Origin: Lampris incognitus
Lineage: Eukaryota; Chordata; Actinopteri; Lampriformes; Lampridae
Length of the DNA stretch: 64,000 nt
Direction: 5' to 3'
Assembly: GCF_029633865.1 (NCBI RefSeq)
Contig: NC_079221.1
Location: 35,001 to 99,000, forward strand
In this document: positions 12,426 to 64,000 of the stretch, piece by piece
How the letters are laid out: the number at the start of each line of letters is the position of its first letter
Position numbering within the stretch: position 1 is the first letter of the stretch
Made by a program: the position numbers and the translations under genes
Notes under the pieces: model-generated
What the model saw: only the letters and a program-made list of their open reading frames with translations
What the model was told of the DNA's origin: nothing
Databases searched by the model: none

Positions 12426-12433
12426 AATACCAT

Positions 12434-13130: not shown

Positions 13131-13285
13131 CTGTAAAATATCACAACAACAAAGACGAACTCTTAAGCTAACAATGGCAATGACATTTCTGATGGGAAGT
13201 ACCAAGCTTCTCGGAGTGACAGTTTTGGATAAATTGTACAGATGGCTCTTTCTATATGTTGCGGTTGAGGTATGTTTTGGGTTAT
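13131..13285 (+). repeat. Outermost satellite monomer at left array edge
   Basis: It contains AATGACATTTCTGATGGGAA and ACCAAGCTTCTCGGAGTGAC but has lost parts of the 5' portion and ends early. It is the most diverged recognisable unit and marks the left boundary of the array. Confidence 0.8.
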
Positions 13286-13629
13286 AGTGGAGCGGATAAA
13301 AGCCAAACTCGAGTGAAATTGTGCAAATTATGATACAAGCATGAAATTTGGTGCATTTCTTCTCCACAGGCTTCCAATCAAATCTGTCTGATTGGCCACT
13401 TGAAAATCCAAGATGGAGGCCATTTTTCAAGATGGCTGTCAAATTAGCCTCCAAAAATGGCATTTTTTTTTTTTTAAATATATTTTGTGTCGTTTTTTGG
13501 CTTGATTGATCTTGGTGTCAATTCCTATGTTTTCAAGCCTGTTGGGTTGGATTTTGGGATTTTTATATAGCAACACATTTTATATACCAAATTAATGAGT
13601 GGATGTGTTTTTCTTTTTAATTGTAATTT
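13286..13629. other. Unassigned insertion between the first monomer and the first spacer
   Basis: It contains CCAAGATGGAGGCCATTTTT and CAAGATGGCTGTCAAA, short words that partly invert on each other and recall the 'AAGATGGCGGCCATTTT' dispersed repeats of many animal genomes. It is not related to the satellite monomer. No coding potential is seen. Confidence 0.4.
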
Positions 13630-13950
13630 TCTGCAATTTAATGTTTTTAGGGTTAGGACTAAGGTTTAGATTTGGATAAAATTGATGAATTCTTGCATTT
13701 TTTTTCCCTTTTTACCACTCAGAACATGCTCCTTCCCTTGATGCTCCCATAAAAGGAACACTGAACGGTCACCAAAAGCACAGAGCTTGTGATTAAACCA
13801 CTTCTCTGTACCTGCTTCGCACTCAGGAAGAAGCACCCCAGCTCATCATTGTGGGTGGCGGGACTCACACTTTAGAAAAACATTTCTCAATATGAGAACT
13901 AAAGAAATTATCCCCGAAATTAGGATGAGGTGTAGATGAACGTAACGGGT
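13630..13950 (+). repeat. Spacer type A, 5'-truncated copy
   Basis: It begins at TTTTCTGCAATTTAATGTTT and contains ACCACTCAGAACATGCTCC, AAAGCACAGAGCTTGTGATT and GTGGGTGGCGGGACTCACAC. The first half of the full type A spacer is missing. Confidence 0.8.
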
Positions 13951-14325
13951 GGCTCTATATCTTTCAGTTAGCGTTGGGATAAGGGTTCTATCTGCTCTGG
14001 CACACAATCCTACAGAGCCACAGCAATACAGACTAACGTCGCGATAGCCAAGCTATCCATGGCAATGGCATTTCTAAAGCAAAGAACCGAGCTTTTCAGA
14101 GTAAAAGTTTTGCATAAAATTAACAGACAGCGCTTTCTACATGTTTCACTTGAGGTAGGGTTTGGGTTAGGGATTATCTGCTCAGTCAGACAATCCCACA
14201 AAAAAAAATACCACAACAGAGAATAACTCTTGACAGTAGCCAAGCTATCCATGACAAAGTCATTTCTGAGGGAAAGTACTAACCTTTTCTGAGTGAAACG
14301 TTTGGATAAAATTAAAAGATGGCTC

Positions 14326-14536
14326 ACAGTCATGTTTTTTCTTCTTTTGTTTGTTTTTTCCTCTTTTTTTTCTTCTTTCATTATTTCAGGATGTCTCTCC
14401 TATCTTTTATTTATTTTCGTTTGGTTGTGCTTGTTTCGTTCGTATTCTGATTTAATGTCCATGTTATTTCAAACTGAAATACTTGTTTATATGTTTTATT
14501 ATTGTGAAAAAAAACTATTAATCATAAAAAAGAAAA
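14326..14536 (+). mobile_element. Small retroposed insertion inside a monomer, probable LINE tail
   Basis: A pyrimidine-rich start passes into TTATTATTGTGAAAAAAAAC and an A-rich end. The flanks AAAAGATGGCTC (14314-14325) and AAAAGATAGCTC (14537-14548) are a 12-bp target duplication with one mismatch, and they rejoin to give the normal monomer text GATGGCTCTTTCTACAT. An A-rich 3' end plus a target duplication of this length fits a 5'-truncated LINE-mobilised copy. Confidence 0.55.
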
Positions 14537-17500
14537 AAAAGATAGCTCTTTCTACATCTTTCGGTTAGGGATGAGTTAGGCTAAGAGTTTTATCTGCTCA
14601 GGCAGATAATACCTCAGCAACAGCGACTAACTCTTCACAGTTACCAAACTAACCATGGCAAAGACATTTCTGATGGAAAGTACAGAGCTTCATGGAGTGA
14701 TAGTTTTGGATAAAATTAACAGATGGCTCTTTCTACACGTTTCGGTTGGGTTAGGGTAAGTGTTTTATCGGTTCAGGCAAACCATCCCACAGACAATACC
14801 ACAGCAACAGAGATCAACTCTTTGCGAAAACCAAACCAACCACAACAATGGCATTTCTGACAGAAAGTACTGAGCTTCACGGAGTGAAAAGAGAATAAAA
14901 TTAACGGATGGCTCTTTCGACATGTTTTGCTTAGGGTAGGGGTTTATCAGCTCAGGCAGACAATCGCACAGAACACCACCGAGACCAACTAAGCAGTAGC
15001 CAGGCTATGCACAGCAATGTCATTTCTGATGAAAAGTGCCAAGCTTCTAGGAGTGATAGTTTCTGATAACATTAACGTATGCTCTCTCTACGCATTTCAG
15101 TTTGGTTAGGGTGAGGGTTTTACTTACTCAGGCAGAAAATCCCACAGAGAATACCACAGCAAAAGAGACTAACTCTCCATGGTAGCAAAGCTAACCATGG
15201 CAATGGCATTTCTGACGGAAGGTATCGAGCTTCTCAGAGTGATAGTTTCGGATAAAATTAACATATGCTCTTTGTACATGTTTGGGTTGGGGTAGAGTAC
15301 GGGTTTTACCTGTTCAGGCAGAAAATCCTAAAGAGAATACCACTGCAAGAGAGAATACCTTCGCATACATAAGCCAACCATGGCAGTGGCATTTCAGAGG
15401 AAAAGTACAGCGCTTCTCGGAGTAAAACTTTTGGATAAAATTAAGGGTTGGCTCTTTCTACATCTTTTGGTTAGGTTTGGGATAGGGTTACTGTAAGGGT
15501 TTTATCAGCTCAGGCAAATCGATCCCACAGAAAATACCACAGCAACAGACACCAACTCTTCGTGGTAGCCAAGCTAACCACGGCAATGGCATTTCTGATG
15601 AAAAGTACCAAGCTTCTCGGAGTGATAGTTTCAGTTAAAATTAACGGACAACTCTTTCTACAGGTTTCACTTAAGAGTAATGGGTTTTATCTGCTCAGGC
15701 CAAAAATCCTACAGAGAATACCACCGCAACAGAGAATAACTTCGCCAGACAAGCTAACCACGTAAATGGCATTTCAGATGGAAAGTACCGAGCTTCTCGG
15801 AGGAACAGTTTGGGATAAAATTAACGGACGGCTCTTTCTACATGTTTGTCTTAGTTGTAAGGGTTTTATCTGCTCTGGCAGACGATCCTACAAAGAACAA
15901 TACAGCAATAGAGAAACTCTTCGCAGTAGCCAAGCTAACCACGGCAATTGCATTTCTGAAGAACCCAGCTTTTCAAAGTAAAAGGTTTGCATAAAATTAA
16001 CGGACAGCGCTTTCTACATGTTTCGCTTGAGGTAGGGTTTGGGCTTATCTACTCAGTCACACCATCTCACAACAAAATACCATAACAACAGAGAACAACT
16101 CTTAGCAGTAGCCAAGCTATCTATGGCAAAGTCATTTCTGAAAGAAAGAACCAAGCTTCTTAGAGTGAAAGTTTTGGATAGAATTAATGGAGAACTCTTT
16201 CTACATCTTTCGGTTAGGGATGAGTTAGGCTAAGATTTTTGTCTGCTCAGGCAAACAATCCAACACACAATACCACAGCAACAGAGAATAATTCTTCGCA
16301 GTAGCATTTCTGAACATGGAACGATAGTTTCAGATAAAACTAATGGATTGCTCTTTCTACATGTTTCGGTTGGGATAGGGTAAGGGTTTTACCTGCCCAG
16401 GCAGACAATCTCACAGCAACAGAGGCTAACTCTTCGCAATAGCAAAGCTCACCATGGCCATGACATTTCTGATGGAAAGTACCAAGCTTCTCGGAGTGAC
16501 AGTTTTTCGATCTTATTAACGTATGCACTTTCTACAAAGTTTCAGTTTGGTTGGCGCAAGGGATTTACCTGCTCAGGCAGACAATCCCACAGCAACAGAG
16601 AATTACTTCGTCGTAGACAAGCTAACCACAGCAATGGCACTGCTCTTCTCAAGTACCGAGCTTCTGAGTGATACTTTCGGGGCAAAAAATTGACAGAGGC
16701 CGTTTCTACATGTTTCACTTAGGCAGACAATCGCACAGAGAATACCACAGCAACAGAGACTAACTCTTCGCAGTAGCCAAGCTCATTACGGCAATGGCAT
16801 TTCTGATGAAAAGTACCAAGCTACTCAGAGTGAAAGTTTTGGATAACATTAATGGACGGCACTGTCTACATGTTTCACTTATGGTAAGGGTTTCATCTGT
16901 TCAGTCGGACAATCCCGCAAAAATACAACAGCAACAGAGACAGACTTTTCATGGTAGCCAAGCTAACTACGGCAACGGCATTCCTGATGGAATGTACCAA
17001 GCTTCTCGGAGTTAAAGTTTTGGAAAAAATTGCTGGACAGCTCTTTCTACATATTTCGCTTAGTGTGAGGGTTTTATCAGGCAGACAATCGCACAGAAAA
17101 TACCACAGCAACGGCATTCCAGATGGGAAGTATCAAGTTTCTTGCAGTGAAAGTTTTGGATAAAATTAATGGACGGCTATTCTACATATTTCACTTATAG
17201 TAAGGGTTTTATCTGTTCAGTCAGACAATCCCGCAGAAATACAATAGCAACAGAGACTAACTCTTCGTGGTAGCCAAGCAAACCAGGGCAATATCATTAC
17301 TGAGGGTAAGTACCAAGATTCTCGGAGTGAAAGTTTTGGATAAAATTAATGGACGGCTCTTTCTACATGTTTCGCTTACATCTAAGGGTTTTATCGGCTC
17401 AGACAGACAATCGCACAGAGAATACCACAGCAACAGAGACTAACTCTTCGCAGTAGCCAAGCTAACTACGGCAACTGCATTTCTGATGGAAAGTACCAAG

Positions 17501-18056
17501 CTTCTCGGAGTGCAAGTTTTGGATAAAATTACTGGACGGCTCTTTCTACATATTTCGCTTAGTGTAAGGATTTTATCAGCTCAGGCAGACAATCACACAG
17601 AACATCACAGCAACAGAGTCTAACTCTTCGTAGTAGCCAACCTAACTACAGCAATGGAATTACTGATTGAAAGTACGAAGCTTCTCAGAGTGAAAGTTTT
17701 GGATAAAATTAATGGACGGCTCTTTGTACATGTTTCACTTAGCGTTTTATCAGGTCAGTCAGTCAATCGCACAGAGAACACCACAGCAACAGAGACTAAC
17801 TCTTCATTGTAGCCAACCCAACTACGAAAATGGAATTTCTGATGGAAAGTACCAAGCTACTCGTAAAAGTTTTGGATAAAATCGCTGGACGGCTTTTGCT
17901 ATATATTTCGCTTAGTTGTAAGGGCATTATCTGCTCACGCAGACAATCGCACAGAGAATACCACAGCAACAGAGACTAACTCTTCGCAGTAGCGAAGCTA
18001 ACAACGGCAATGGCATTTCTGAAGGAAAGAACTGAGCTTCTCGGACTGAAAATGTT

Positions 18057-18060
18057 GGAT
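18057..18060. repeat. Target-site duplication GGAT, left
   Basis: Immediately before the 5' LTR. The same four bases follow the 3' LTR. A 4-bp duplication fits a Ty3/gypsy integrase. Confidence 0.85.
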
Positions 18061-18303
18061 TGTGGTGGACACGTATTGGGGACAGAATTCAACCCAGGAA
18101 CTAAGGGTTAAGTCATGGTTGCCCTGGCAGGTTAACGCAGGGTTAAGTTATGGTTGTCCAGCCAGTTTTCTGGTTATTCTTGCCACCCCCGCTCAGTCGA
18201 GCTGTGGGTTTTGTTTGTCTCGCTGATTTACCGTGGATTAAAGAAAGTTGCCTACACGGCTAAAGTGTGAACCTACGGTCTTCTCCGTTACTTCGGCTCT
18301 ACA
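18061..18303 (+). repeat. 5' LTR
   Basis: It starts TGTGGTGGACACG and ends CTCTACA (TG...CA). It contains GATTTACCGTGGATTAAAG, a likely polyadenylation-signal region. It is identical to the 3' LTR except for one base. Confidence 0.97.
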
Positions 18304-18304
18304 C

Positions 18305-18320
18305 TGGTGACCCCGACGTC
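18305..18320 (+). promoter_or_regulatory. Primer-binding site, tRNA-Trp type
   Basis: TGGTGACCCCGACGTC lies one base after the 5' LTR. It complements the 3' end of animal tRNA-Trp (…CGTCGGGGTCACCA) at 15 of 16 positions. Confidence 0.85.
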
Positions 18321-18355
18321 GGTTTTCGGATAAGTTTTCTGAAACCACACACATT

Positions 18356-18973
18356 ATGGCTACGAACGCCGTTGCAATTAAACTGCCGGAGTTTTGGGAG
18401 TCTTCCGCGGCTACATGGTTCGCGCAGGCTGAGGCACAGTTCGCGCTCAGAGACATAACAGCAGACGAGACCAGGTACTACTACGTAGTGGCAGCGCTGG
18501 GGTGCGCTACGGCTTCCAGGATAAGCGGTTTCATAACCAACCCACCGGCCGATGGTAAATACGCCGCACTTAAACATCTCCTCCTTGAAACTTTTGAACT
18601 GTCAGCAACGGAGAGAGCACGTCGCCTCTTCGCAATTCAGGGCTTGGGAGATGGCAAACCATCGGAGCTAATGAGCAGGATGTTAAACCTACTGGGTCAA
18701 GAAAAGCCATGTTTCCTGTTTATGGAGCTGTTTCTGCGCAACATGCCGCCCCACGTCCAGACTGCGCTCGCTAACTCCACCATCACTGATCCCCGTGAGC
18801 TGGCAAAGGAGGCTGACCGATTCTTCGTCGCTACACAACGTTCCTCCCATGCCGGGGTGCTGGCTCCTACCTTCACTGGCCCCCCGCCGACATCGCGGGC
18901 GTGGCCCGACGGTGGCGCCACAGCATCAGACCGCTACAAGCCCTCTGGACTCTGTATGTACCACGCTCGATAA
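18356..18973 (+). CDS. Gag-like frame of the gypsy element (fossil element)
   Basis: A 205-codon frame starts with MATNAVAIKLPEFWESSAAT, the typical opening of gag in this gypsy group (KLP.FW...WF.Q.EAQF). It continues through capsid-like helices with DKARYYYVV/ALG-type words and a SELMSRML stretch. The product would form the core particle around element RNA in the cytoplasm. It ends 14 bases before the pol frame starts. It is short compared with gag of related elements, so I regard the gag region as incomplete. Confidence 0.8.
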   Translation: MATNAVAIKLPEFWESSAATWFAQAEAQFALRDITADETRYYYVVAALGCATASRISGFITNPPADGKYAALKHLLLETFELSATERARRLFAIQGLGDGKPSELMSRMLNLLGQEKPCFLFMELFLRNMPPHVQTALANSTITDPRELAKEADRFFVATQRSSHAGVLAPTFTGPPPTSRAWPDGGATASDRYKPSGLCMYHAR

Positions 18974-18987
18974 GCGAAAGCTAAACG

Positions 18988-21900
18988 GTGCCGTTCCCCC
19001 TGCAACTACAGGCCGACGGGAAACGAGAGGGCCAACACTCAGTAGTGGCCATGAGTGTTGGCGATATGAGCAGGCTACTCTTCATCCTCGACACCATCTC
19101 CGGTCGGCGATTTCTTTGTGACACGGGCCCACAGAGAAGCGTGCTCCCTGCTACTGACGTCGACATCATGGGCGGGGAGCGGGGCCCCCAGTTGGCGACG
19201 GCTGACGGCAGCCCTATCCACACCTACGGCGTGCGGTCTGTAGAACTGTGTTTTGGTGGACAACGTTTCACGTGGGAGTTCGTCATGGCCAATGTAACGC
19301 TTCCCCTCCTCGGAGCTGATTTTTTGTGCGCTTACGGTTTGCTAGTGGACATTCAGAACAGCCGTCTGGTCGATGCCTTAACCTTCTCCTCCTTCGCATG
19401 TACGCGGAGGGAAGCGGCCTATGCAGGTCTAGCCAACTCTCTCTCAGAGGCAGACAAGTTCAACCGCCCCCTCCTCGCTGAGTTCCCTGACCTCACCCAG
19501 CCTACCTTCTCTGCACCCACCGCTAAGCATGGGGTGGAGCATCACATTGCTACGAAGGGGCCCCCGGTCTACGCCAGAGCCAGGCGTCTCGACCCCGCCA
19601 AACTCGCCATTGCCAAGTCTGAGTTCGAGCACCTGGAACGCATGGGGATCATCCGCCGCTCTGACAGCCCGTGGGCGTCCCCACTCCACATCGTCGCTAA
19701 GCCTGATGGAGGTTGGCGCCCATGCGGGGACTACCGCCGACTAAATGACGCCACCACGCCTGACCGCTATCCTGTCCCGCATATCCAGGACTTTTCTGCA
19801 AACCTGTCTGGCAAATGCGTCTTCTCAAAAGTCGACCTGGTCCGTGGTTATCATCAAGTTCCCGTGCACCCCTCAGACATCCCCAAGACAGCGGTGACAA
19901 CCCCATTCGGCCTATTTGAATTCCTACGAATGCCATTTGGACTCAAAAACGCGGCCCAGTCCTTTCAGCGGCTAATGGATTCAGTGCTCCGTGGCCTTCC
20001 TTTCATCTTCGTCTATTTGGACGACATACTCATCGCCAGCGCCTCCGAGGAAGAACACCTGTCCCATCTTCATGCCCTCTTCACACGCCTCAGCCAGCAT
20101 GGGCTGATCGTCAACCCGGCGAAGTGCCGGTTCGGGCTGACAGCCATTGATTTCCTCGGGCACCGCATCACTGGGGACGGGGCAGTCCCCCTGCCCTCAA
20201 AGGTGGAAGCGGTGGCGGCCTTTCCGCGCCCCCAAACAGCTCGTGCGCTCAGGGAGTTCATCGGGATGGTGACATTCTACCACCGCTTCATTCCTCGAGC
20301 CGCCTTTATCATCCGGCCACTGTACGAGGCGCTGAAAGGCATGTCCCCCAACCAGGCGGTCGACTGGACAGCAGAGCGGGACCGTGCGTTCACCGAGACT
20401 AAAGCTGCGCTCTCCCAGGCTACCCTGCTAGCGCATCCTTCACCTACAGCGCCTATTTTCATAACCACGGATGCATCGGACTATGCTGTTGGTGCGGTTC
20501 ACGAACAGTGGGTGGGGGGGGCTTGGCAGCCTTTGGCCTTTTTCAGTCGCCAGCTTACACCCCGAGAGCGCAAGTATAGTACTTTTGACAGGGAACTCCT
20601 CGGTCTCTGGCTCGCCGTCCGGCATTTCCGTTTCCTGCTAGAGGGCCGCGAGTTTACTGCGTACGTGGACCACAAGCCCCTCACGTTTGCCATGTCCAAG
20701 ACGGCCGAGCCATGGTCCGCTCGCCAGCAGCGACAACTCTCCTACATTTCGGAATTCACTACCGACATCCAGCACGTCGCTGGTAAGTCTAACCAGGTAG
20801 CTGACTGCCTGTCTAGGGCAGTGATTGGAGCGGTCCACCTAGGCCTTGACTATGCACAGATGGCTGCTGACCAGGCCACGGACCCGAGCATCCTCCGTCT
20901 CCGGGCCTCCGACACGGGGCTCCGCCTGCAGGACGTTCCTTTCAGCGACACAGGTGTCACCCTCCTGTGTGACGTCTCCACAGGACAGCCCAGGCCCATC
21001 GTCCCGCACAGCTGGAGACGCCCCGTATTTGAAGCTGTGCACGGCCTCTCTCATCCAGGCGGTAAGCCATCCGTGCGCCTGACCTCTGCTAAGTTTGTGT
21101 GGGAGGGACTTAAGAGAGACGTGAAAGCGTGGGCCGACTCGTGTGTTGCCTGTCAGCGGGCTAAGATACACCGCCACATTAAGGCGCCCCTGGAACGCTT
21201 CGCAGTGCCGGAGAGACGATTTGACCATGTCCACGTCGACCTGGTTGGTCCCCTACCCCCCTCCCATGGGTTCACCTACCTCTTCACTGTGGTGGACAGG
21301 ACTACGCGCTGGCCTGAAGCTGTTCCCCTGGCATCCACGACGTCTGCTGATGTGGCCCGGGCTTTTATTGGGTCGTGGGTCTCACGTTTCGGTACGCCTT
21401 CCGACCTTTCATCTGACCGTGGGCCACAGTTTACCTCAGAGCTATGGAATGCTGTGGGTGAGGCTCTGGGCGTCAAGCTTCATCGCACTACCGCCTACCA
21501 CCCTCAGGCGAACGGCCTATGTGAGCGGTTCCACCGGTCCATGAAGGCTGCGCTTCGGGCTACTCTCAAGGACTGCAACTGGGTTGACAAGCTCCCATGG
21601 GTCATGCTGGGCCTGCGGACCGCCCCGAAGGAAGACCTACAAGCCTCCTCTGCGGAGCTGGTGTACGGCACGCCGCTGCGAGTCCCAGGCGATTTCATGC
21701 CCAATGCAACGCGTCCCTGGTCAGCTGTGGACCAACGAGCCTCCTTGCTGGACGGGGTCAGAGCTTTCACACCCGTCCCTACCGCCCAACACGGCGCTCC
21801 GTCGTCCCAGGTGCCCCCAGGTCTGCAGTCAGCGGACTACGTGTTCATCCGTCACGACGCACACCGCCCCCCTCTGCAACCCCCTTATGACGGCCCCTTC

Positions 21901-22212
21901 CGCGTCCTGGAACGGGGAACTAAGCACCTGGTGGTGGATTTTGGGGGCACGGCCGAGCATGTTTCAGTGGATCGAGTTAAACCCGCACACCTGGACTTGA
22001 CGCAGCCGTTGGAGTTAGCCCAACCTCCTCGTCGCGGTCGTCCCCCGGCTCCGCCTCCTCCCCCCGTGGAGGCCCGAGCTGCCTCTTCTGCTCCTCAGGC
22101 CGACCTCCACAGGCCCGCGTCAATGCCTCCCACAGACACTCCGGCCCCTGTTATCCGGAGCCGCTGCGGACGGCCTGTCGTCCACCCGCGCCTGCCTGAC
22201 TTCGATTACTAG
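18988..22212 (+). CDS. Pol polyprotein of the gypsy element (protease, RT, RNase H, integrase)
   Basis: A single 1074-codon frame. Protease active site D-T-G is at residues 45-47. The RT domain spans about 190-400 with YLDD at 343-346. RNase H starts near [10 protein letters not shown] (Asp495). The integrase has an HHCC zinc finger (His685, His689, Cys719, Cys722) and a D,D-35-E core (Asp751, Asp810, Glu846). A GPF-type module ([11 protein letters not shown]) follows near residue 965, and the last 70 residues are Pro-rich. The product copies element RNA into DNA and inserts it. No chromodomain is evident at the C-terminus. Many overlapping minus-strand frames here are shadows of its GC-rich codon use. 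Confidence 0.95.
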
Positions 22213-22220
22213 GGCGAATT

Positions 22221-22233
22221 CTGGGGGGGCTCA
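22221..22233 (+). promoter_or_regulatory. Polypurine tract
   Basis: A G-rich run (CTGGGGGGGCTCA) directly precedes the 3' LTR, the position where plus-strand synthesis is primed in this family. Confidence 0.7.
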
Positions 22234-22476
22234 TGTGGTGGACACGTATTGGGGACAGAATTCAACCCAGGAACTAAGGGTTAAGTCATGGTTGCCCTGG
22301 CAGGTTAACGCAGGGTTAAGTTATGGTTGTCCAGCCAGTTTTCTGGTTATTCTTGCCACCTCCGCTCAGTCGAGCTGTGGGTTTTGTTTGTCTCGCTGAT
22401 TTACCGTGGATTAAAGAAAGTTGCCTACACGGCTAAAGTGTGAACCTACGGTCTTCTCCGTTACTTCGGCTCTACA
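22234..22476 (+). repeat. 3' LTR
   Basis: 243 bp, TG...CA, one substitution relative to the 5' LTR (within CTTGCCACC.CCGCTC). Confidence 0.97.
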
Positions 22477-23094: not shown

Positions 23095-23560
23095 GCTCAG
23101 GCGGACAGTGCCCAACCGCTGGCTTAGCGATACCCCAATATGAGAGTTATGGAGAGATTGATGGGTTCAATTTGAATGTTTTTTCTTCTTTACAACTGAT
23201 CTGCCACTGTCCTGTATCTTGATTAGTTTATCCCGTGTTAAACTTGAAAAGTTATTGGTGGGGTTTGGAGCATTAAGTGATTTTTTTTTTAGTTGAAGTT
23301 CACTGCTATTGCAGTTTAATGTTTTTAGGGTTAGGTTTAAAATAAGAGTAATTGATGGCTTTCTCAATTTTTTTCTTTTACCACTCAGAGCACGCTCTTT
23401 GCCTCAAAAGCACAGAGCTTGTAATCAAATCACTTCTCTGTACCTGCTTCATGCTCAGGAAGAAGCACCGTAGCTCATCATCGTGGGTGGCGGACTCACA
23501 CTTAAACATTTTTCAAACCAAGAACGACAGAAATGACCGCTGAAAGTGTAGTCTTCTGAA
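23095..23560 (+). repeat. Spacer type B, copy 1 (shorter form)
   Basis: It starts CTCAGGCGGACAGTGCCCAA, has ACAACTGATCTGCCACTGTC and TGGCTTTCTCAATTTT, and ends GACCGCTGAAAGTGTAGTCT. It lacks the internal duplication (two copies of CCGTTTTAAACTTGAAAAGT) present in the later type B copies. Confidence 0.85.
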
Positions 23561-24134: not shown

Positions 24135-24720
24135 AAGGGTTAGAATTGAATGCCAGAGCCAACACATGTCAACCAGGCGCCTCAACAATGCCCAAATACT
24201 GGCTTACAGATACCCCCAGGTTTAGGGTTACGAATTTGGAGAGAGTTTGATGGATTGGGTATAGGATCTATTTGGAGGTTGTTTATTCTTTACACTTGAT
24301 CCCCCATTGTCTTCCCTCTTGATTAGTTTATCCCGTTTTAAACTTGAAAAGTTGTTGGTGGGGTTTGCAGCAATACAAGTGGGTTTCTTTTATTGAATTG
24401 CACTTCTACAATCGTCATGTTTTTAGGGTTTGGACTAAGTTTTAGGGGTAGGTTTAAATAAAATTGATGAATTTCTACATTTTTGCCCCTCCTTTTTACC
24501 ACACAGAACATGCTCCTTCCTCTTGATAACTCCATAAAAGCAACACTGAACGGTCACCAAAAGCACAGAGTGAGTGATTAAACCACTTCTCTGTACCTGC
24601 TTCGCGGTCAGGGAGAAGCACCCCAGGCTCATCATGGTGAGTGGCGGGACTCGCACTTTAGAAAAACATTTCTCAAGATAAAAACTAAAGAAATTATCTC
24701 CGAAATTAGTATTAGGTTTT
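24135..24720 (+). repeat. Spacer type A, copy 1
   Basis: It starts GAATGCCAGAGCCAACACAT, contains CCCGTTTTAAACTTGAAAAG, a poly-T/AT segment, ACCACACAGAACATGCTCC and GTGAGTGGCGGGACTCGCAC, and ends near AGTATTAGGTTTTGATAAAC. Confidence 0.85.
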
Positions 24721-27044: not shown

Positions 27045-27635
27045 AACTTTATGGTTAGGGTTGAATGCCAGAGCCAACACATGTCAACTGAGCACCTCCG
27101 CCAATGCCCAAGTGCTGGATTAGAAATACCCCCAGGATTAGGGATATGGATAGAGTTTGATTGGTTAAGTCTGGGGTCAATTTGGGTGTTTATTCGTTAC
27201 AACTGATCTCCCAGTCTTATATCTTGATTACTTTATCCCGTTTTAAACGTGAAAAGTTGTTGGTGGGGTTTGAAACAATACAAGTGTTTGTTGTTTGTTT
27301 GTTTTTTTTTTCAAATTGAACTTTTCCGCAATTGCAATTTAATGTTTTAAGAGTTAAGAGTAAGGTTTAGGGTTAGATCAAATTGATGAATTTCTGCACT
27401 TTTTTCCTTTTTACCACTCAGAACATGCCCCTTCTCTTAATTCTCCCATAAAAGGAACATTGAACCTCATCTAAAGCACAGAGCTTGTGATTAAACAACT
27501 TCTCTGTACCCGCTTAGCGCTCAGGAAGAAGCACCCCAGGCTCATCATGGTGGGTGGCGGGACTCGCACTTCAGAAAAACATTTCTCAAGATAAAAACTA
27601 AAGAAATTATCCCCGAAATTAGTATTAGATTTTGA
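27045..27635 (+). repeat. Spacer type A, copy 2
   Basis: Same landmarks as copy 1, with TGTTTGTTTGTTTTTTTTTT in the T-rich part and CAACTGAGCACCTCCGCCAA near the start. Confidence 0.85.
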
Positions 27636-29789: not shown

Positions 29790-30360
29790 TTAACTTTATG
29801 GTTAGGGTTGAATGCCAGAGCCAACACGTCAACTGAGCACCTCTGCCAATGCCCAAGTGCTGGATTAGAAATACACCCAGGATTAGGGATATGGATAGAT
29901 TGGTTAAGTCTAGGAGCAAATTGGGTGTTTATTCATTATAACTGATCTCCCTTTGTCTTATGTCTTGATTACTTTATCCTGTTTTAAACTTGAAAAGTTG
30001 TTGGTGGGGTTTGAAACAATGCAAGTGTTTTTTTTGTTTTTTTTTTAATTGAACTTTTCTGCAATTGCAATTTAATGTTTGAAGAGTTAAGACTAAGGTT
30101 TAGATCAAATTGAAGATTTTCTGCACTTTTTTCCTTTTTACCACTCAGAACATGCCCCTTCTCTTGATGCTCCCATGAAAGGAACATTGAACATCATCTA
30201 AAGCACAGAGCTTGTGATTAAACCACGTCTCTGTACCCGCTTAGCGCTCAGGAAGAAGCACCCCAGCTCATCGTCGTGGGTGGCGGGACTCACTTTAGAA
30301 AAACATTTCTCACGATAAAACTGAAGAACCTATCCCCGAAAGTAGGATTAAGTTTGGCTA
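29790..30360 (+). repeat. Spacer type A, copy 3
   Basis: Landmarks as in copy 2. GTGGGTGGCGGGACTCAC lies near its right end. Confidence 0.85.
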
Positions 30361-32164: not shown

Positions 32165-32830
32165 TGCTCAGGCGGACAGTGCCCAAGCGCTGGCTTAGCG
32201 ATACCCCAATATGAGAGTTATGGAGAGATTTATAGGTTCAATTTGGATGTTTTTTGTTCTTTACAACTGATCTGCCACTGTCCTGTATTTTGATTAGTTT
32301 ATCCCGTGTGAAACTTAAAAAATTGCTGGTGAGGTTTGGAGCATTATAAATCTTTTTTTTTTTTAAATTGAAGTTCTCTGCTATGGCAGAGTTATGTTTC
32401 AATAAAATAGATAGATTTCTCCATTTTACCAATCAGAGGATGCATCTTGCCTCAAAAGCACACAACTTGAGATTATCCACCGTTTATCCTGTTTTAAACT
32501 TGAAAAGTTGTTGATGGGGTTTGGAGCATTATAAGTGATTTTTTTTTTCAATTGAAGTTCACTGCTATTGCAGGTTAATGTTTTTAGGGTTAGGTTTAAA
32601 ATAAAAGTAATTGATGGCTTTCTCAATTTTTTTCTTTTACCACTCAGAGCACACTCTTTGCCTCAAAAGCACAGAGCTTGTAATCAAATCACTTCTCTGT
32701 ACCTGCTTCATGCTCAGGAAGAAGCACCGCAGCTCATCATCGTGGGTGGCGGACTCACACTTAGAAATATTTTTCAAGCCAAGAACGACAGAAATGACCG
32801 CTGAAAGTGTAGTCTTCTGAATCTTTTGGT
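32165..32830 (+). repeat. Spacer type B, copy 2 (long form)
   Basis: As type B copy 1 but with an internal duplication of about 200 bp. TTTAAACTTGAAAAG-type words occur twice, separated by ACCAATCAGAGGATGCATCT. Confidence 0.85.
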
Positions 32831-46474: not shown

Positions 46475-47135
46475 AGGCGGACGGTGCCCAACCGCTGGCT
46501 TAGCGATACCCCAATATGAGAGTTATGGAGAGATTGAAGGGTTCAATTTGGATGTTTTTTGTTCTTTACAACTGATCTGCCACTGTCCTGTATTTTGATT
46601 AGTTTATCCCGTGTTAAACTTTAAAAATTGCTGGTGAGGTTTGGAGCATTATAAATGATTTGTTTTTAATTGAAGTTCTTTGCTATGGCAGTTTGTTTTT
46701 AGAGTTATGTTTCAATAAAATTGATAGATTTCTCCATTTTACCAATCAGAGGATGCATCTTGCCTCAAAAGCACACAGCTTGAGATTATCCACCGTTTAT
46801 CCTGTTTTAAACTTGAAAAGTTGTTGGTGGGGTTTGGAGCATTAAGTGATTTTTTTTTAATTGAAGTCCACTGCTATTGCAGTTTAATGTTTTTAGGGTT
46901 AGGTTTAAAATAAAAGTAATTGATGGCTTTCTCAATTTTTTCTTTTACCACTCAGAGCACAATCTTTTCCTCAAAAGCACAGAACTTGTAATCAAATCAC
47001 TTCGCTGTACCTGCTTCATGCTCAGGAAGAAGCACCGCAGCTCATCATCGTGGGTGGCGGACTCACACAAACATTTTTCAAGCCAAGAACGACAGAAATG
47101 ACCGCTGAAAGTGTAGTCTTCTGAATCTTTTGGTT
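46475..47135 (+). repeat. Spacer type B, copy 5
   Basis: Near-identical to type B copy 4. Confidence 0.85.
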
Positions 47136-47774: not shown

Positions 47775-48365
47775 AGGTAAGGGTTAGAGAATTGAATGCC
47801 AGAGCCAACATATGTCAACCAGGCGCCTCAACAATGCCCAAACACTGGCTTACAGATACCCCCAGGTTTAGGGTTACGAATTTGGAGAGAGTTTGATGGA
47901 TTGGGTATAGGATCTATTTGGAGGTTGTTTATTCTTTACACTTGATCCCCCATTGTCTTCCCTCTTGATTAGTTTATCCCGTTTTAAACTTGAAAAGTTG
48001 TTGGTGGGGTTTGCAGCAATACAAGTGTGTTTCTTTTATTGAATTGCACTTCTACAATTGTCATGTTTTTAGGGTTAGGACTAAGTTTTAGGGGTAGGTT
48101 TAGATAAAATTGATGAATTTCTACATTTTTGCCCCTCCTTTTTACCACACCGAACATGCTCCTTCCTCTTGATAACTATAAAAAGCAACACTGAATGGTC
48201 ACCAAAAGCCCAGAGCGAGTGATTAAACCACTTCTCTGTACCTGCTTCGTGGTCAGGGAGAAGCACCCCAGGCTCATCATGGTGGGTGGCGTGACTCGCA
48301 CTTTAGAAAAACATTTCTCAAGATAAAAACTAAAGAAATTATCCCCGAAATTAGTATTAGGTTTT
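47775..48365 (+). repeat. Spacer type A, copy 7
   Basis: Near-identical to type A copy 6. Confidence 0.85.
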
Positions 48366-50399: not shown

Positions 50400-51010
50400 T
50401 ACTAGGTTAACTTTATGGTTAGGGTTGAATGCCAGAGCCAACACATGTCAACTGAGCACCTCCGCCAATGCCCAAGTGCTGGATTAGAAATACCCCAAGG
50501 ATTAGGGTTAGGGATAGAGTTTGATTGGTTAAGTCTAGGGGTAATTTGGGTGTTTAGTCGTTACAACTGATCTCCCATAGTCTTATATCTTGATTACTTT
50601 GTCCCGTTTTAAACTTGAAAAGTGTTGGTGGGGTTTGAAACAATACAAGTGTTTTTTGTTTGTTTTGTATTTTTTTTTTTTAAATTGAACTTTTCTGCAA
50701 TTGCAATTTAATGTTTTAAGAGTTAAGACTAAGGTTTAGGGTTAGCTTTAGATCAAATTGATGAATTTCTGCACTTTTTTCCCTTTTTACCACTCAGAAC
50801 ATGCCCCTTCTCTTGATGCTCCCATGAAAGAAACATTGAACATCTAAAGCACAGAGCTTGTGATTAAACCACTTCTCTGTACCCGCTTAGTGCTCAGGAA
50901 GAAGCACCCCAGCTCATCGTCGTGGGTGGCGGGACTCACTTTAGAAAAACATTTCTCACGATAAAACTAAAAAACTTAACCCCGAAAGTAGGATTAGGTT
51001 TGGCTAAACA
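50400..51010 (+). repeat. Spacer type A, copy 8
   Basis: Landmarks as in type A copies 2 and 3, with a long mixed T-rich tract near 50650. Confidence 0.85.
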
Positions 51011-54539: not shown

Positions 54540-55160
54540 GATTGAAAATACTAGGTTAACTTTACGGTTAGGGTTGAATGCCAGAGCCAACACATGTCAA
54601 CTGAGCACCTCCGCCAATGCCCAAGTGCTGGATTAGAAATACCCCAAGGATTAGGGTTAGGGATAGAGTTTGATTGGTTAAGTCTAGGGGCAATTTGGGT
54701 GTTTATTCGTTACAACTGATCTCCCATTGTCTTATATCTTGATTACTTTATCCCGTTTTAAACTTGAAAAGTTGTTGGTGGGGTTTGAAACAATACAAGT
54801 GTTTTTTGTTTGTTTGTTTTTTTTTTTTTAAATTGAACTTTTCTGCAATTGCAATTTAATGTGTTAAGAGTTAAAACTAAGGTTTAGGGTTAGATCAAAT
54901 TGAGGAATTTCTGCACTTTTGTCCTTTTTACCACTCAGAACATGCCCCTTCTCTTGATGCTCCCATGAAAGGAACATTAAACATCATCTAAAGCACAGAG
55001 CTTGTGATTAAACCACTTCTCTGTACCCGCTTAGCGCTCAGGAAGAAGCACCCCAGCTCATCATCGTGGGTGGCAGGGCTCACTTTAGAAAAACATTTCT
55101 CACGATAAAACTAAAGAACTTAACCCCGAAAGTAGGATTAGGTTTGGCTGAACATAACGG
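54540..55160 (+). repeat. Spacer type A, copy 9
   Basis: Close to type A copy 8. Confidence 0.85.
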
Positions 55161-57284: not shown

Positions 57285-57690
57285 AAGTTAAGGGTTGAAT
57301 GCCCGGGCCAGCGCGTGTCACCAGAGTGCCTCCGCCAGTGCTGGCTTCGAGATATCCCCAGAATTAGGGTTAGGGATGTGGATAGAGTTTGATGGATTAA
57401 GGATACGGTAAATTTGGATGTTTCTTCTTTACAATTCACCTCCCATCTTGATTAGTTTACCCTGCTTTAAGCTTGAAAAGTTATTGGTGGGGTTTAGAGT
57501 AACATAAACTTCTTCTCTTTTTTTTGAAGTAGTCTGCTATTGCAATTTTATGTTTTAAGGGTAAGGGTTAGGACTAAGGTTTAGGTCTGGATAAAACTGG
57601 CGGATTTATGAAATGTTCCCCCTTTTTAACCCCTCAGAATGCGCTCCTTCCTCGAAGCTCCCATAAAGGAGCAAAAAAAAAAAAACAAAA
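57285..57690 (+). repeat. Spacer type C, copy 1
   Basis: Starts GAATGCCCGGGCCAGCGCGT. It is related to type A but shorter, ending in A-rich sequence (GAGCAAAAAAAAAAAAACAA) in place of the CACAGAGCTT...GGCGGGACTC part. Confidence 0.85.
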
Positions 57691-60529
57691 AAAAAATGTA
57701 GAATGAGCTATCCGTTAATTTTATCCAGTCCTTTCACACCGAGAAGCTCTGTACTTTGCATCAGAAATGCCACTGCAGTGGTTAGCTTGGCAACCGCCAA
57801 GACAGTCTCTATTACTATGGTATTCTTTGTGGGATTACTTCTTAGCAGGAGTCAAGCTAACCACAGCAATGGCATTTCTGATGGGAAATACTGAGTGTCT
57901 TGGAGCTTTAGGTTGGTATACAATAAACAAACGGCTCTTTCTACATTTTAAAGGGTTGGGATAGATTTAGTATGAGGGTTTTATCTGCACAGGCAGACAG
58001 TCTCTGTTGCTGACCATAACCCTACACCAACCCTGACGGAAAAATATAGAACAAGATGGCTCTTTCTACATGTTTCGCTTAGAGTATGGGTTTTATCAGC
58101 TGAGGCAGACAATCGCACAGAGAATACCACAGCAAAAGAGACTAACTCTTCGCAGTAGCCGAGCTAACCACGGCAATGGCATTTCTGATGGAAAGTACCA
58201 AGCTTCTCGGAGTGAAAGTCTTGGATAGAATTAATGGACGGTTCTTTCTATACGTTTTGCTTAGCGTAAGGATTTTTTCAGCTATGGCAGACAATCGCAC
58301 AGAGAATACCACAGCAACAGAGACGAACTCTTCGCAGTAGCCAAGCTAACCACGGCAATAGTATTTCTGATTTAAAGTACCAAGCTTCTCGGAGTGAAAG
58401 TCTTGGATAGAATTAATGGACGGCTCTTTTTATATGTTTCGCTTAGTGTAAGGGTTTTATCAGCTCAGGCAGACAATCGCACAGAGAATACCACAGCAAC
58501 AGAGACTAACTCTTTGCAGTAGCCAAGCTAACCACGGCAATGGCATTCCTGATGGAAGTACCAAGCTTCTCGGAGTGAAAGTCTCGGATAAAATTAATGG
58601 ACGGCTCTCTCTATGTTTCGCTTATTGTAAGGGTTTTATCAGATCAGGCAGACTTTCGCACAGAGAATACCACAGCAACAGAGACTAACTCTTTGCAGTA
58701 GCCAAGCTAACCATGGCAATGGCATTCCTGATGGAAAGTACCAAGCTTCTCGGAGTGAAAGTCTTGGATAAAATTAATGGACGGCTCTTTCTATGTTTCG
58801 CTTAGTGTAAGGGTTTTATCAGCTCAGGAAGACTTTCGCACAGAGAATACCACAGCAACAGAGACTAACTCTTTGCAGTAGCCAAGCTAAACACGGCAAT
58901 GGCATTTCTGATGGAAAGTACCAAGCTTCTCGGAGTGAAAGTCTTGGATAGAATTAATGGACGGCTCTTTTTATATGTTTCGCTTAGTTTAAGGGTTTTA
59001 TCAGCTCAGGCAGACAATCGCACAGCAACAGAGACTAACTCTTCACAGTAGCCAAGCTAACCACGGCAATGGCATTTCTGATGGAAAGTACCAAGCTTCT
59101 CAGAGTGAAAGTCTTGGGTAAAATTAATGGACGGCTCTTTCTATGTTACGCTTAGCGTAAGGGATTTATCAGCTCAAGCAGACAATCGCACAGAGAATTC
59201 CACAGCAACAGAGACGAACTCTTCGCAGTAGCCAAGCTAACCACGGCAATGACATTTCTGATGGAAAGTACCAAGCTTCTTGGAGTGAAAGTCTTGGATA
59301 AAATTAATGGATGGATCTTTCTATGATTCGCTAAGTGTAATGGTTTTATCAGCTCAGGCAGACAATCGCACAGAGAATACCACAGCATCAGAGACTAACT
59401 CTTCACAGTAGCCAGCTGACCATGGCAATGGCATTTCTGTTGGAAAGTACCAAGCTTCTCGGAGTGAAAGTCTTGGATAAAATTAATGGACCGCTCTTTC
59501 TATGTTTCGCTTAGTTTAAGGGTTTTATCAGCTCAGGCAGACAATCGCACAGAGAATACCACAGCAACAGAGACCAACTCTTTGCAGTAGCCAAGCTAAA
59601 CACGGCAATGGCATTCCTGATGGAAAGTACCAAGCTTCTCGGAGTTAAAGTCTTGGATAAAATTAATGGACGGCTCTTTCTATAGGTTTCGCTTAGTGTA
59701 AGGGTTTTATCAGCTCAGGCAGACAATCGCACAGAGACGAACTCTTCGCAGTAGCCAAGCTAACCACGGCAATGGCATTTCTGATGGAAAGTACCAAGCT
59801 TCTCGGAGTGAAAATCTTGGATAAAATTAATGGATGGCCCTTTCTATGTTTCCCTTAGCGTAAGGGTTTTATCAGCTCAGGCAGACAATCGCACAGAGAA
59901 TTCCACAGCAACAGAGACTAACTCTTCGCAGTAGCCAAGCTAACCACGGCAATGACATTTCTGATGGAAAGTACCAAGCTTCTTGGAGTGAAAGTCTTGG
60001 ATAAAATTAATGGATGGATCTTTCTATGATTCGCTAAGTGTAAGGGTTTTATCAGCTCAGGCAGACAATCGCACAGAGAATACCACAGCAACAGAGACTA
60101 ACTCTTCGCAGTAGCCAGCTGACCATGGCAATGGCATTTCTGATGGAAAGTACCAAGCTTCTCGGAGTGAAAGTCTCGGATGAAATTAAGGGACGGCTCT
60201 TTCTATGTTTCGCTTAGCGTAAGGGTTTTATCAGCTCAGGCAGACAATCGCACAGAGAATACCACAGCAACAGAGACGGTCTTCGCAGTAGCCAAGCTAC
60301 CCACAGCAATGGCATTTCTGATGGAAGGACCAAGCTTCTCGAAGCGAAAGTTTTAGAGAAAATTACTGGACGGCTCTTTCTATGTTTCGCTTAGGGTAAG
60401 GGTTTTATCAGCTCAGGCAGACAATCGCACAGACAATACCACAGCAACAGAGACTAACTCTTCGCAGTAGCCAAGCTAACCACGGCAATGGCATTTCTGA
60501 TGGATAATATTGAGCTTCTCGGAGTGAAA
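57691..60529 (+). repeat. Satellite block 12
   Basis: An inverted module, a second short inverted piece near 57997-58050, then about 14 homogeneous monomers. Confidence 0.9.
57697..57840 (-). repeat. Inverted monomer 10 (module in flipped form)
   Basis: GAGCTATCCGTTAATTTTAT through GGTTAGCTTGGCAACCGCCA, then CAGTCTCT and TGGTATTCTTTGTGGGATTA. The central part is the reverse complement of the centre of modules 1-9, so the loop of the palindrome is flipped here. Confidence 0.85.
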
Positions 60530-60935
60530 GTTAAGGGTTGAATGCCCGGGCCAGCGCGTGTCACCAGAGTGCCTCCGCCAGTGCTGGCTTCGAGATATCC
60601 CCAGAATTAGGGTTAGGGATGTGGATAGAGTTTGATGGATTAAGGATACGGTAAATTTGGATGTTTCTTCTTTACAATTCACCTCCCATCTTGATTAGTT
60701 TACCCTGCTTTAAGCTTGAAAAGTTATTGGTGGGGTTTAGAGTAACATAAACTTCTCTTTTTTTTGAAGTAGTCTGCTATTGCAATTTTATGTTTTAAGG
60801 GTAAGGGTTAGGACTAAGGTTTAGGTCTGGATAAAACTGGCGGATTTATGAAATGTTCCCCCTTTTTGACCCCTCAGAATGCGCTCCTTCCTCGAAGCTC
60901 CCATAAAGGAGCAAAAAAAAAAAAACAAAAAAAAA
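60530..60935 (+). repeat. Spacer type C, copy 2
   Basis: Near-identical to copy 1, with a 3-bp length change in the TTCTTCTC run. Confidence 0.9.
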
Positions 60936-63900
60936 ATGTAGAATGAGCTATCCGTTAATTTTATCCAGTCCTTTCACACCGAGAAGCTCTGTACTTTGCA
61001 TCAGAAATGCCACTGCAGTGGTTAGCTTGGCAACCGCCAAGACAGTCTCTGTTACTATGGTATTCTTTGTGGGATTACTTCTTAGCAGGAGTCAAGCTAA
61101 CCACAGCAATGGCATTTCTGATGGGAAATACTGAGTGTCTTGGAGCTTTAGGTTGGTATACAATAAACAAACGGCTCTTTCTACATTTTAAAGGGTTGGG
61201 ATAGATTTAGTATGAGGGTTTTATCTGCACAGGCAGACAGTCTCTGTTGCTGACCATAACCCTACACCAACCCTGACGGAAAAATATAGAACAAGATGGC
61301 TCTTTCTACATGTTTCGCTTAGAGTATGGGTTTTATCAGCTGAGGCAGACAATCGCACAGAGAATACCACAGCAAAAGAGACTAACTCTTCGCAGTAGCC
61401 GAGCTAACCACGGCAATGGCATTTCTGATGGAAAGTACCAAGCTTCTCGGAGTGAAAGTCTTGGATAGAATTAATGGACGGTTCTTTCTATACGTTTTGC
61501 TTAGCGTAAGGATTTTTTCAGCTATGGCAGACAATCGCACAGAGAATACCACAGCAACAGAGACGAACTCTTCGCAGTAGCCAAGCTAACCACGGCAATA
61601 GTATTTCTGATTTAAAGTACCAAGCTTCTCGGAGTGAAAGTCTTGGATAGAATTAATGGACGGCTCTTTTTATATGTTTCGCTTAGTGTAAGGGTTTTAT
61701 CAGCTCAGGCAGACAATCGCACAGAGAATACCACAGCAACAGAGACTAACTCTTTGCAGTAGCCAAGCTAACCACGGCAATGGCATTCCTGATGGAAGTA
61801 CCAAGCTTCTCGGAGTGAAAGTCTCGGATAAAATTAATGGACGGCTCTCTCTATGTTTCGCTTATTGTAAGGGTTTTATCAGATCAGGCAGACTTTCGCA
61901 CAGAGAATACCACAGCAACAGAGACTAACTCTTTGCAGTAGCCAAGCTAACCATGGCAATGGCATTCCTGATGGAAAGTACCAAGCTTCTCGGAGTGAAA
62001 GTCTTGGATAAAATTAATGGACGGCTCTTTCTATGTTTCGCTTAGTGTAAGGGTTTTATCAGCTCAGGAAGACTTTCGCACAGAGAATACCACAGCAACA
62101 GAGACTAACTCTTTGCAGTAGCCAAGCTAAACACGGCAATGGCATTTCTGATGGAAAGTACCAAGCTTCTCGGAGTGAAAGTCTTGGATAGAATTAATGG
62201 ACGGCTCTTTTTATATGTTTCGCTTAGTTTAAGGGTTTTATCAGCTCAGGCAGACAATCGCACAGCAACAGAGACTAACTCTTCACAGTAGCCAAGCTAA
62301 CCACGGCAATGTTATTTCTGATGGAAAGTACCAAGCTTCTCAGAGTGAAAGTCTTGGGTAAAATTAATGGACGGCTCTTTCTATGTTACGCTTAGCGTAA
62401 GGGATTTATCAGCTCAAGCAGACAATCGCACAGAGAATTCCACAGCAACAGAGACGAACTCTTCGCAGTAGCCAAGCTAACCACGGCAATGACATTTCTG
62501 ATGGAAAGTACCAAGCTTCTTGGAGTGAAAGTCTTGGATAAAATTAATGGATGGATCTTTCTATGATTCGCTAAGTGTAATGGTTTTATCAGCTCAGGCA
62601 GACAATCGCACAGAGAATACCACAGCATCAGAGACTAACTCTTCACAGTAGCCAGCTGACCATGGCAATGGCATTTCTGTTGGAAAGTACCAAGCTTCTC
62701 GGAGTGAAAGTCTTGGATAAAATTAATGGACCGCTCTTTCTATGTTTCGCTTAGTTTAAGGGTTTTATCAGCTCAGGCAGACAATCGCACAGAGAATACC
62801 ACAGCAACAGAGACCAACTCTTTGCAGTAGCCAAGCTAAACACGGCAATGGCATTCCTGATGGAAAGTACCAAGCTTCTCGGAGTTAAAGTCTTGGATAA
62901 AATTAATGGACGGCTCTTTCTATAGGTTTCGCTTAGTGTAAGGGTTTTATCAGCTCAGGCAGACAATCGCACAGAGACGAACTCTTCGCAGTAGCCAAGC
63001 TAACCACGGCAATGGCATTTCTGATGGAAAGTACCAAGCTTCTCGGAGTGAAAATCTTGGATAAAATTAATGGATGGCCCTTTCTATGTTTCCCTTAGCG
63101 TAAGGGTTTTATCAGCTCAGGCAGACAATCGCACAGAGAATTCCACAGCAACAGAGACTAACTCTTCGCAGTAGCCAAGCTAACCACAGCAATAGCATTT
63201 CTGATGGAAGGACCAAGCTTCTCGAAGCTAAAGTTTTAGAGAAAATTACTTGACGGCTCTTTATGTTTCGCTTAGGGTAAGGGTTTTATCAGCTCAGGCA
63301 GACAATCGCACAGAGAATACCACAGCAACAGAGACGAACTCTTCGCAGTAGCCAAGCTAACCACGGCAATAGTATTTCTGATGTAAAGTACCAAGCTTCT
63401 CGGAGTGAAAGTCTTGGATAAAATTAATGGAAGTTTCTTTCTATATTTTTCGGTTAGTGTAAGGGTTTTATCAGCTCAGGCAGACAATCGCACAGAGAAT
63501 ACCACAGCAACAGAGACCAACTCTTTACACTAGCCAAGCTAACCATGGCAATGGCATTCCTGATGGAAAGTACCAAGCTTCTCGGAGTGAAAGTCTTGGA
63601 TAAAATTAATGGACGGCTCTTTTTATATGTTTCGCTTAGTGTAAGGGTTTTATCAGCTCAGGCAGACAATCGCACAGAGAATACCACAGCAACAGAGACT
63701 AAGTCTTCGCAGTAGCCAAGCTAACCGAGACAATGGCATTTCTGATGGAAAGTACCAAGCTTCTCGGAGTGAAAGTCTTGGATAAAATTAATGGACGTTT
63801 CTTTCTATATGTTTCGCTTAGTGTAAGGGTTTTATCAGCTCAGGCAGACAATCGCACAGAGAATACCACAGCAACAGAGACTAACTCTTCGCAGTAGCCA

Positions 63901-63956
63901 AGCTAACCACGGCAATGGCATTTCTGATGGATAATATTGAGCTTCTCGGAGTGAAA
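60936..63956 (+). repeat. Satellite block 13
   Basis: Copy of block 12 up to about 63185, then about four monomers of 180-182 bp that are closest to the array consensus. Confidence 0.9.
60937..61080 (-). repeat. Inverted monomer 11
   Basis: Near-identical to inverted monomer 10. Confidence 0.85.
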
Positions 63957-64000
63957 GTTAAGGGTTGAATGCCCGGGCCAGCGCGTGTCACCAGAGTGCC
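63957..64000 (+). repeat. Spacer type C, copy 3, cut by window edge
   Basis: The first 44 bases match the start of type C copies 1 and 2, which shows the array continues to the right. Confidence 0.85.

Follow-up and report, generated by a model that had tools for sequence, protein, structure and literature searches.

The composite repeat near the start of C14

What is the long composite repeat near the start of C14 (NC_079221.1), and what are the regular spacers that interrupt it? The window analysed here is a 64,000-nucleotide stretch, C14:35,001-99,000, of a 1.48-Gb assembly; positions without a contig name are those of the window. An initial annotation described the repeat as a composite satellite with nested units, built from 177-182 bp monomers with levels at 709 bp, 3.24 kb, 3.96 kb and 9.34 kb. 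We indeed found monomers of a single family arranged head to tail, with longer periods that comprise multiple monomers. A monomer profile yielded 232 matches between 13,135 and 63,959 (171 full length, 22 on the minus strand), with a consensus of 179 bp and a median spacing of 180 bp, and TRF reported periods of ~172-199 bp, together with their doubles, across 14,996-63,959. The 16-mers shared within the window had prominent offsets of 709, 3240, 3954/3963 and 9340/9342 bp. The two 3.24-kb units (57,300 vs 60,540) are 97.7% identical over 3,203 bp, and sequences at the ~3.95-kb offset are 96.1% identical over 4,023 bp and 98.7% over 2,987 bp. The 9.34-kb level stood only in part: of the two pairs proposed, 23,881 vs 33,221 reaches 96.8% identity over 899 bp, whereas identity drops to 75.8% for 24,719 vs 34,061, which makes this level patchy and not a clean higher-order unit.

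The range from 13,131 to 64,000 that had been assigned to the array is neither satellite throughout nor complete. The telomere-proximal edge of the satellite and its first monomer block lie at 13,135-18,060 (plus strand; monomer profile, and recurrence of the edge at other ends), and the main array with its spacers and inverted modules lies at 22,477-63,959 (plus strand; TRF and monomer profile), continuing past position 64,000. With interruptions, the C14 array extends from ~C14:48 kb to ~C14:173,066; the monomer and U3 profiles had no match at C14:179-182 kb and 194-196 kb. Identity to the monomer consensus is 93-94% from 55 kb on vs 84-89% elsewhere in the window, making the former part the more uniform. 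A 22-mer of the monomer had no match in one viral and one prokaryotic contig collection.

The stretch between the two blocks, 18,061-22,476 on the plus strand, is occupied by a Gypsy LTR retrotransposon whose insertion split a monomer; it was recognised by its ORFs, Pfam domains, LTRs and flanks. Its 243-bp LTRs (18,061-18,303 and 22,234-22,476) differ by one base, and a GGAT duplication flanks the element, which is separate from the satellite.

The inverted units of the initial annotation were also recovered: the strand map of the monomers resolved the 22 inverted pieces in the window into 11 modules. One of these palindromic modules, at 43,363-43,632, was characterised by strand map, fold and arm comparison; it was the sole module folded, with a free energy of -98 kcal/mol and a z-score of -7.5 for 43,340-43,640. 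The others start near 23,682, 26,589, 29,339, 33,022, 38,547, 45,765, 47,326, 49,718, 57,694 and 60,934.

U3 snoRNA copies in the spacers

U3 is a small RNA required for ribosome production. The spacers proved as regular as first described, and 15 of those in the window contain a full-length match to U3 snoRNA (RF00012), all on the minus strand and scoring 62-107 bits, above the gathering score of 34 of the covariance model. Neither this identity nor the Gypsy insertion had been noted in the initial annotation. Model matches and alignment divided the copies into an outermost 'edge' copy (13,714-13,928; 107.5 bits), which belongs to a group of edge copies forming one clade, and three subfamilies. 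Subfamily A comprises the copies at 23,380-23,555, 32,639-32,816, 38,164-38,341, 42,982-43,157 and 46,947-47,120, which are short and lack the box C region; subfamily B those at 24,498-24,718, 33,840-34,055, 39,344-39,559, 44,176-44,397 and 48,144-48,363; and subfamily C those at 27,413-27,631, 30,140-30,351, 50,789-50,997 and 54,930-55,141. The three subfamilies have spacer sequence beyond U3 in common, and an A-rich stretch lies immediately 3' of the U3 end in the window copies.

The spacers of the two 3.24-kb units (57,290-57,693 and 60,533-60,933, minus strand), identified by spacer comparison and by the identity of the units, differ from the above: the first retains only ~50 nt of the U3 3' end, and the second likewise carries a U3 3' stub. 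Along C14, full U3 copies occupy two zones, 48.7-90.1 kb and 136-172 kb; the stretch between them, 92-135 kb, has none, and its spacers carry the 3' stub. An Rfam search of loci L013 and L025-L028 returned no matches.

Origin of the array copies

To place these copies, we scored the best 63 of 8272 first-look candidates from a U3 search of the genome. They comprise 10 canonical U3 genes (146-166 bits; C6:3.56 Mb and two clusters on C26), three lone internal copies, three copies on unplaced contigs and 47 placed array-type copies. The array copies are about 80-84% identical to gene U3, and the similarity is confined to the mature RNA: all 368 HSPs between gene and array fell at query positions 1501-1717, the U3 RNA itself occupying 1500-1715. 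The 28 array copies tested formed one clade (support 96/91). Signs of a target-site duplication around the array U3 are weak and only suggestive: similarity between the flanks on either side is limited to some of the copies, and monomer-like sequence 3' of U3 is seen in subfamilies A and B and in the edge copy tested but is absent from most C copies. In A and B this likeness is weak, which blurs the original U3 junction.

The single clade and the similarity confined to the RNA are consistent with a single retroposition of U3, presumably by LINE-type machinery. Precise U3 ends and A-rich stretches would also be expected if a SINE-like mobile element with a U3 head had inserted repeatedly into a satellite already present, and lone full-length copies do occur at C9:45.8 Mb and C12:20.6 Mb. 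SINEs with heads derived from small nuclear RNAs (SINEU) similarly join such an RNA to a repeat, and are dispersed. In the present case, however, no dispersed copy of U3 plus spacer was found among the best 63 of the 8272 candidates, the lone copies lack the array spacer, and the single clade and the spacer sequence shared by A, B and C argue against multiple insertions. We regard this alternative as improbable. Slightly less probable still is a DNA-level origin, in which segmental duplication carried a U3 gene together with its neighbouring sequence into the array and the flanks later decayed. The blurred junction in A and B would fit such an event, but none of the 10 U3-masked genes had flank similarity to C14:1-179,000 at E 1e-3, despite the ~80-84% identity of U3 itself.

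Location at chromosome ends

All 47 placed array-type matches among the 63 scored lie within 210 kb of the end of a chromosome-scale contig, on 23 ends. When a search for the satellite edge was added, which found a matching edge at 23 placed ends and on one unplaced contig, U3-bearing arrays were located at no fewer than 24 of the 42 ends of 21 chromosome-scale contigs, at most 221 kb from the end, and at both ends of at least seven chromosomes. The arrays adjoin chromosome ends, and do so on several chromosomes. At the right end of C1, a TTAGGG block lies beyond the array. U3 points to the telomere at 23 of the 24 array-bearing ends; the exception, the left end of C2, looks inverted: there the minus strand carries the array, and plus-strand TTAGGG lies inside it at 245.8 kb.

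The centromeric or pericentromeric role raised in the initial annotation is difficult to reconcile with this distribution. The nucleosome-sized monomer of ~180 bp, the higher-order units and the uniform core between older layers do resemble centromeric satellites. Nevertheless, the scored matches place the array only near contig ends, at both ends of seven chromosomes, with the C14 array itself 48-173 kb from the contig start, and CENP-B boxes are not enriched (sites with no, one and two mismatches: 0, 2 and 101, vs means of 0.2, 7.4 and 82.6 after shuffling). The scored matches are the best candidates of the genome searches, and a relative of the monomer at centromeres may lie outside them. 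We consider a centromeric satellite very unlikely.

Do the array copies function as U3?

Box sequences (A, C', B, C and D) were taken from the genes and from the boxes generally described for U3. Box A carries 2-5 mismatches in all 28 array copies tested, whereas the U3 genes have at most one mismatch per box (10 of 10). With subfamily A lacking the box C region and subfamily B having changes in box D, none of the array copies tested has the full set of undamaged boxes of a functional gene. A PSE-like motif, sought as an upstream promoter element of the snRNA type and scored with a matrix built from nine of the U3 genes themselves, gave -13.8 to -1.7 for the 15 window and 18 edge copies vs 32.9-35.7 for those nine genes, the 95th percentile of random 200-mers being -1.7. 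The gene on C6 (L051; score -0.8) and both lone copies also lack the motif, which thus does not by itself separate genes from relics.

Variability, measured as variable gap-free alignment columns in U3 vs its flanks, differed among the groups. On C14, U3 is as variable as the flanks both in subfamily B (19/197 vs 29/431 columns) and in subfamily C (35/174 vs 68/352 columns). Subfamily A U3 is less variable than its flanks, the flank figure being inflated by one divergent copy. The edge U3 is likewise less variable (11/200 vs 170/1332 columns, p 0.002), and across 18 ends its 215 bases are the least variable of 11 non-overlapping stretches of the edge locus. Pure decay does not predict this, although the sequence pattern is suggestive only. 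It is attractive to speculate that selection maintains the edge copy, present once per end and directed towards the telomere, as a subtelomeric non-coding RNA or protein-binding element derived from the U3 retrocopy, which might for instance recruit box C/D proteins or tether ends to the nucleolus; we give this idea only a slim chance.

A functional tandem cluster of U3 genes, or one still making a variant U3, might be read from the full length of all window copies in model coordinates and from the low variability of the edge copies. Against it stand the damaged box A, the box losses and changes in A and B, the absence of a gene-like promoter motif, and B and C copies on C14 as variable as their flanks. 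We therefore rejected this highly improbable reading; judged from sequence, the array pieces have most likely lost U3 function.

An assembly artefact of collapsed or falsely interleaved repeats is scarcely credible, as, although such regions are hard to assemble and the left end of C2 looks inverted, the edge recurs in the same order at the ends of 22 contigs with 92-97% identity and not as exact copies.

A proposed history

We consider it likely that the array is a subtelomeric composite satellite in which a once-retroposed U3 is a passenger that was amplified, spread between ends and lost from a younger core. In this scenario, a mature U3 snoRNA would have been retroposed once by LINE-type machinery, landing at a spacer/monomer junction of the ~179-bp satellite and travelling with the repeat unit from then on. 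Within each array, the unit may then have been amplified by unequal exchange, from which the A, B and C subfamilies would have arisen; exchange from one chromosome end to another, as we infer, would have spread the array while keeping its direction relative to the telomere constant. The younger, more uniform core probably grew from units that had already lost most of U3 by deletion, which would explain why older, U3-bearing layers flank it. If the array acts at all, it may do so as bulk subtelomeric repeat DNA, possibly with a role in heterochromatin.

Alpha-satellite-like arrays show the same layering, a uniform, younger core between more diverged layers; here, however, the arrays lie at chromosome ends and their units include non-monomer spacers. 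We found no satellite carrying a U3 snoRNA copy in searches of the open-licence PMC literature, while satellites that originated from 5S rRNA genes have been published. The latter, PcP190 of Physalaemus frogs (PMC4201667) and a centromeric repeat of Hoplias malabaricus (referenced in PMC4201667), resemble the present case in that a satellite family has grown from a small structural RNA gene. Their source in these accounts is a tandem gene family, and the location reported for them is centromeric or pericentromeric, whereas here U3 travels within the spacer of a different monomer, at subtelomeric sites. In primates, U3 retrocopies and U3/LINE-1 chimeras are described, U3 being present in 8.5% of 253 chimeric insertions (PMC13174262). 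There, too, U3 snoRNA was copied into DNA by retrotransposon machinery, as would be the case here, but the insertions as described are single and their U3 recurrently truncated, unlike the full-length copy amplified within a satellite. PO41 of chicken and quail, with a 41-bp unit, is also a subtelomeric tandem repeat; transcripts of both its strands are reported, in which inverted repeats give short double-stranded stretches (PMC4301066). Its abstract reports no small-RNA gene.

If our reading is upheld, the system offers a means to date and polarise satellite growth: with the U3 genes as an outgroup, layers, deletions and exchange between ends become readable on one tree. Meanwhile, an Rfam-based annotation of this genome would label many subtelomeric relics as U3 genes. 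Other, weak Rfam candidates in the window (mir-651, MIR4227 and vertebrate telomerase RNA) all fell short of their gathering scores, coincided with monomers or inverted modules, and were rejected. As a separate observation, matches to vertebrate telomerase RNA above the family cut-off are present in the assembly.

Structure of the satellite and its spacers

The ~180-bp monomer array described in the initial annotation holds up in the window: repeats detected by TRF reach its right end, and a profile built from them matched 232 monomers at 13,135-63,959, 171 of which are full length. The offsets proposed there reappeared as peaks among common 16-mers, and the 3.24-kb and ~3.95-kb units showed 96-99% identity across 3-4 kb. 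One of the pairs cited for a 9.34-kb relationship was recovered at 96.8% identity, but the other at just 75.8%. Inverted modules had also been claimed, and the monomer strand map located inverted monomer pieces in 11 modules; the folding of one module was far more stable than that of shuffled versions. Nevertheless, the span 13131-64000 is not satellite throughout, as a Gypsy LTR retrotransposon occupies 18,061-22,476. Its LTRs differ at 1/243 positions, by which it looks young, and a GGAT duplication flanks it; its ORFs include pol (1074 aa) and a first ORF matching DUF7041 (Pfam). Minisatellites with 64-bp and 45-bp units lie at 12260-13029, immediately outside the satellite edge.

The spacers carry U3 snoRNA sequence. 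Rfam model RF00012 gave 15 whole-model matches in the window (62-107 bits; gathering score, 34); every one lies in a spacer and on the minus strand. Their alignment with flanks separated subfamilies A (n = 5), B (n = 5) and C (n = 4) and a single edge copy at 13,714 (minus strand). Subfamily A retains about 176 nt of U3 and lacks the box C region. In the two spacers at 57.3 and 60.5 kb, U3 is reduced to ~50 nt of its 3' end. The non-U3 part of the spacer is common to different U3 subfamilies.

Chromosomal location and polarity

The assembly (1.48 Gb, 537 contigs) includes 21 chromosome-scale contigs among C1-C30 (30-155 Mb, 1.416 Gb in sum). On C14, which holds the window at 35,001-99,000, monomers occur at 48,135-173,066 with interruptions; full U3 copies lie on either side of 92-135 kb, a stretch in which none was found. 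We scored the best 63 of 8272 first-look candidates from a genome-wide RF00012 search: ten canonical genes, three lone internal copies, three copies on unplaced contigs and 47 near ends. Among these 63, the end-located copies lie ≤210 kb from the end, are spread over 23 ends, and point toward the telomere on 22 of them. A search with the edge sequence found at least 23 placed ends, with equal polarity at 22/23. Both searches combined place the array on at least 24 of 42 ends and at least 17 of 21 chromosomes, at least seven of which carry it at both ends. The right end of C1 has the edge at 154.907 Mb and, farther out, TTAGGG blocks at 154.987 Mb, on a contig of 154.991 Mb.

The polarity exception is the left end of C2, with the edge at 220 kb and an inward TTAGGG block beyond it at 245.8 kb. 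Array, U3 and TTAGGG block in these first 246 kb are all oriented as at a right end, yet stand at the left one. The end appears to be inverted, perhaps as an effect of assembly; the segment could be an inverted or misjoined subtelomere, or the trace of a fusion.

The start of C14 (G000:C14:1-35000, L013-L016), directly upstream of the window, is filled by near-identical 5858-bp tandem units, and a long telomere block is absent there. Each unit holds a (CCCTAA)3 block and two ORFs: one of 912 aa matches GIY-YIG (25.2 bits; cut-off, 22.6) and, below threshold, reverse transcriptase, and one of 768 aa has a sub-threshold GDSL match. The repeat would be a Penelope-like element arrayed in tandem close to a chromosome end.

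Origin of the U3 copies

The ten canonical U3 genes among the 63 scored matches (146-166 bits) comprise one at C6:3.56 Mb and nine in two C26 clusters. When 3.2-kb gene loci were compared with C14:1-179,000 by BLAST, 368/368 matches fell inside query positions 1501-1717, the RNA itself spanning 1500-1715. Masking U3 in the ten loci left no match to this C14 region at E 1e-3. Thus, the array copies have the U3 RNA and not the gene promoter or 3' flank, a pattern that would be expected of a retrocopy. The window copies show an A-rich stretch 3' of the U3 end in the alignment, and a possible target-site duplication around the array U3 is suggestive only.

All 28 array copies tested formed one clade in the tree (support 96/91), and therefore a single U3 capture was followed by amplification. 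The clade adjoins L061 (C9:45815014) and L062 (C12:20626770), with the canonical genes on the opposite side. These two lone full-length copies have no gene-like promoter motif and are probably ordinary retrocopies. The nine C26 genes (L052-L060; 28.52-28.53 and 10.47-10.49 Mb) end in TCAGAGTGGT with CAGA as box D, whereas many array copies, like the C6 gene, retain the TCTGAGTGGT form.

Function and variability of the array U3

Box A carries 2-5 mismatches in 28/28 array copies tested; the canonical genes (10/10) have at most one mismatch in any of the five boxes. A motif common to nine canonical genes, which we take to be PSE-like, is absent from 15 window and 18 edge copies, but also from the C6 gene. 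On C14, variable columns in U3 and flank numbered 19/197 and 29/431 in subfamily B (p 0.20), and 35/174 and 68/352 in subfamily C (p 0.82); in both, U3 is as variable as the flank, which is what relics should show. Subfamily A gave 15/161 in U3 against 93/300 in the flank, the latter inflated by one divergent copy. In the comparison of 18 edge loci, variable columns were rarer in the U3 body than in the rest (11/200 against 170/1332 gap-free columns, p 0.002), also after removal of homopolymers and CpG (7/172 against 140/1164, p 0.001). The edge U3 was the least variable of 11 non-overlapping segments of the edge locus (0.055; next, 0.062 and 0.077). Local exchange between chromosome ends could be the cause, and we regard the reduced variability as a lead.

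Proposed growth and related systems

The core of the array is more uniform and lacks full U3, with the U3-bearing layers outside it. This layering would fit growth through unequal exchange, the newest units being central and the U3-bearing layers older. Edge identity is 92-97% among most ends and nearly 100% among C14, C9 and unplaced C42; such likeness fits exchange between chromosome ends, which would preserve orientation toward the telomere. The U3 pieces would then be passengers in the array.

No satellite bearing U3 was found in the literature searched. 5S-derived satellites are the nearest published kind (PMC4201667), U3 retrocopies are known in primates (PMC13174262), and the avian PO41 repeat indicates that transcription of subtelomeric repeats is possible (PMC4301066).

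A genome search for vertebrate telomerase RNA gave two matches above cut-off (82.6 bits each, 332-336 bases) at C14:45632858 and C14:45864371, ~231 kb apart on opposite strands; they point to a vertebrate, the fish origin implied in the initial annotation is plausible, and the match length presumably fits ray-finned fish.
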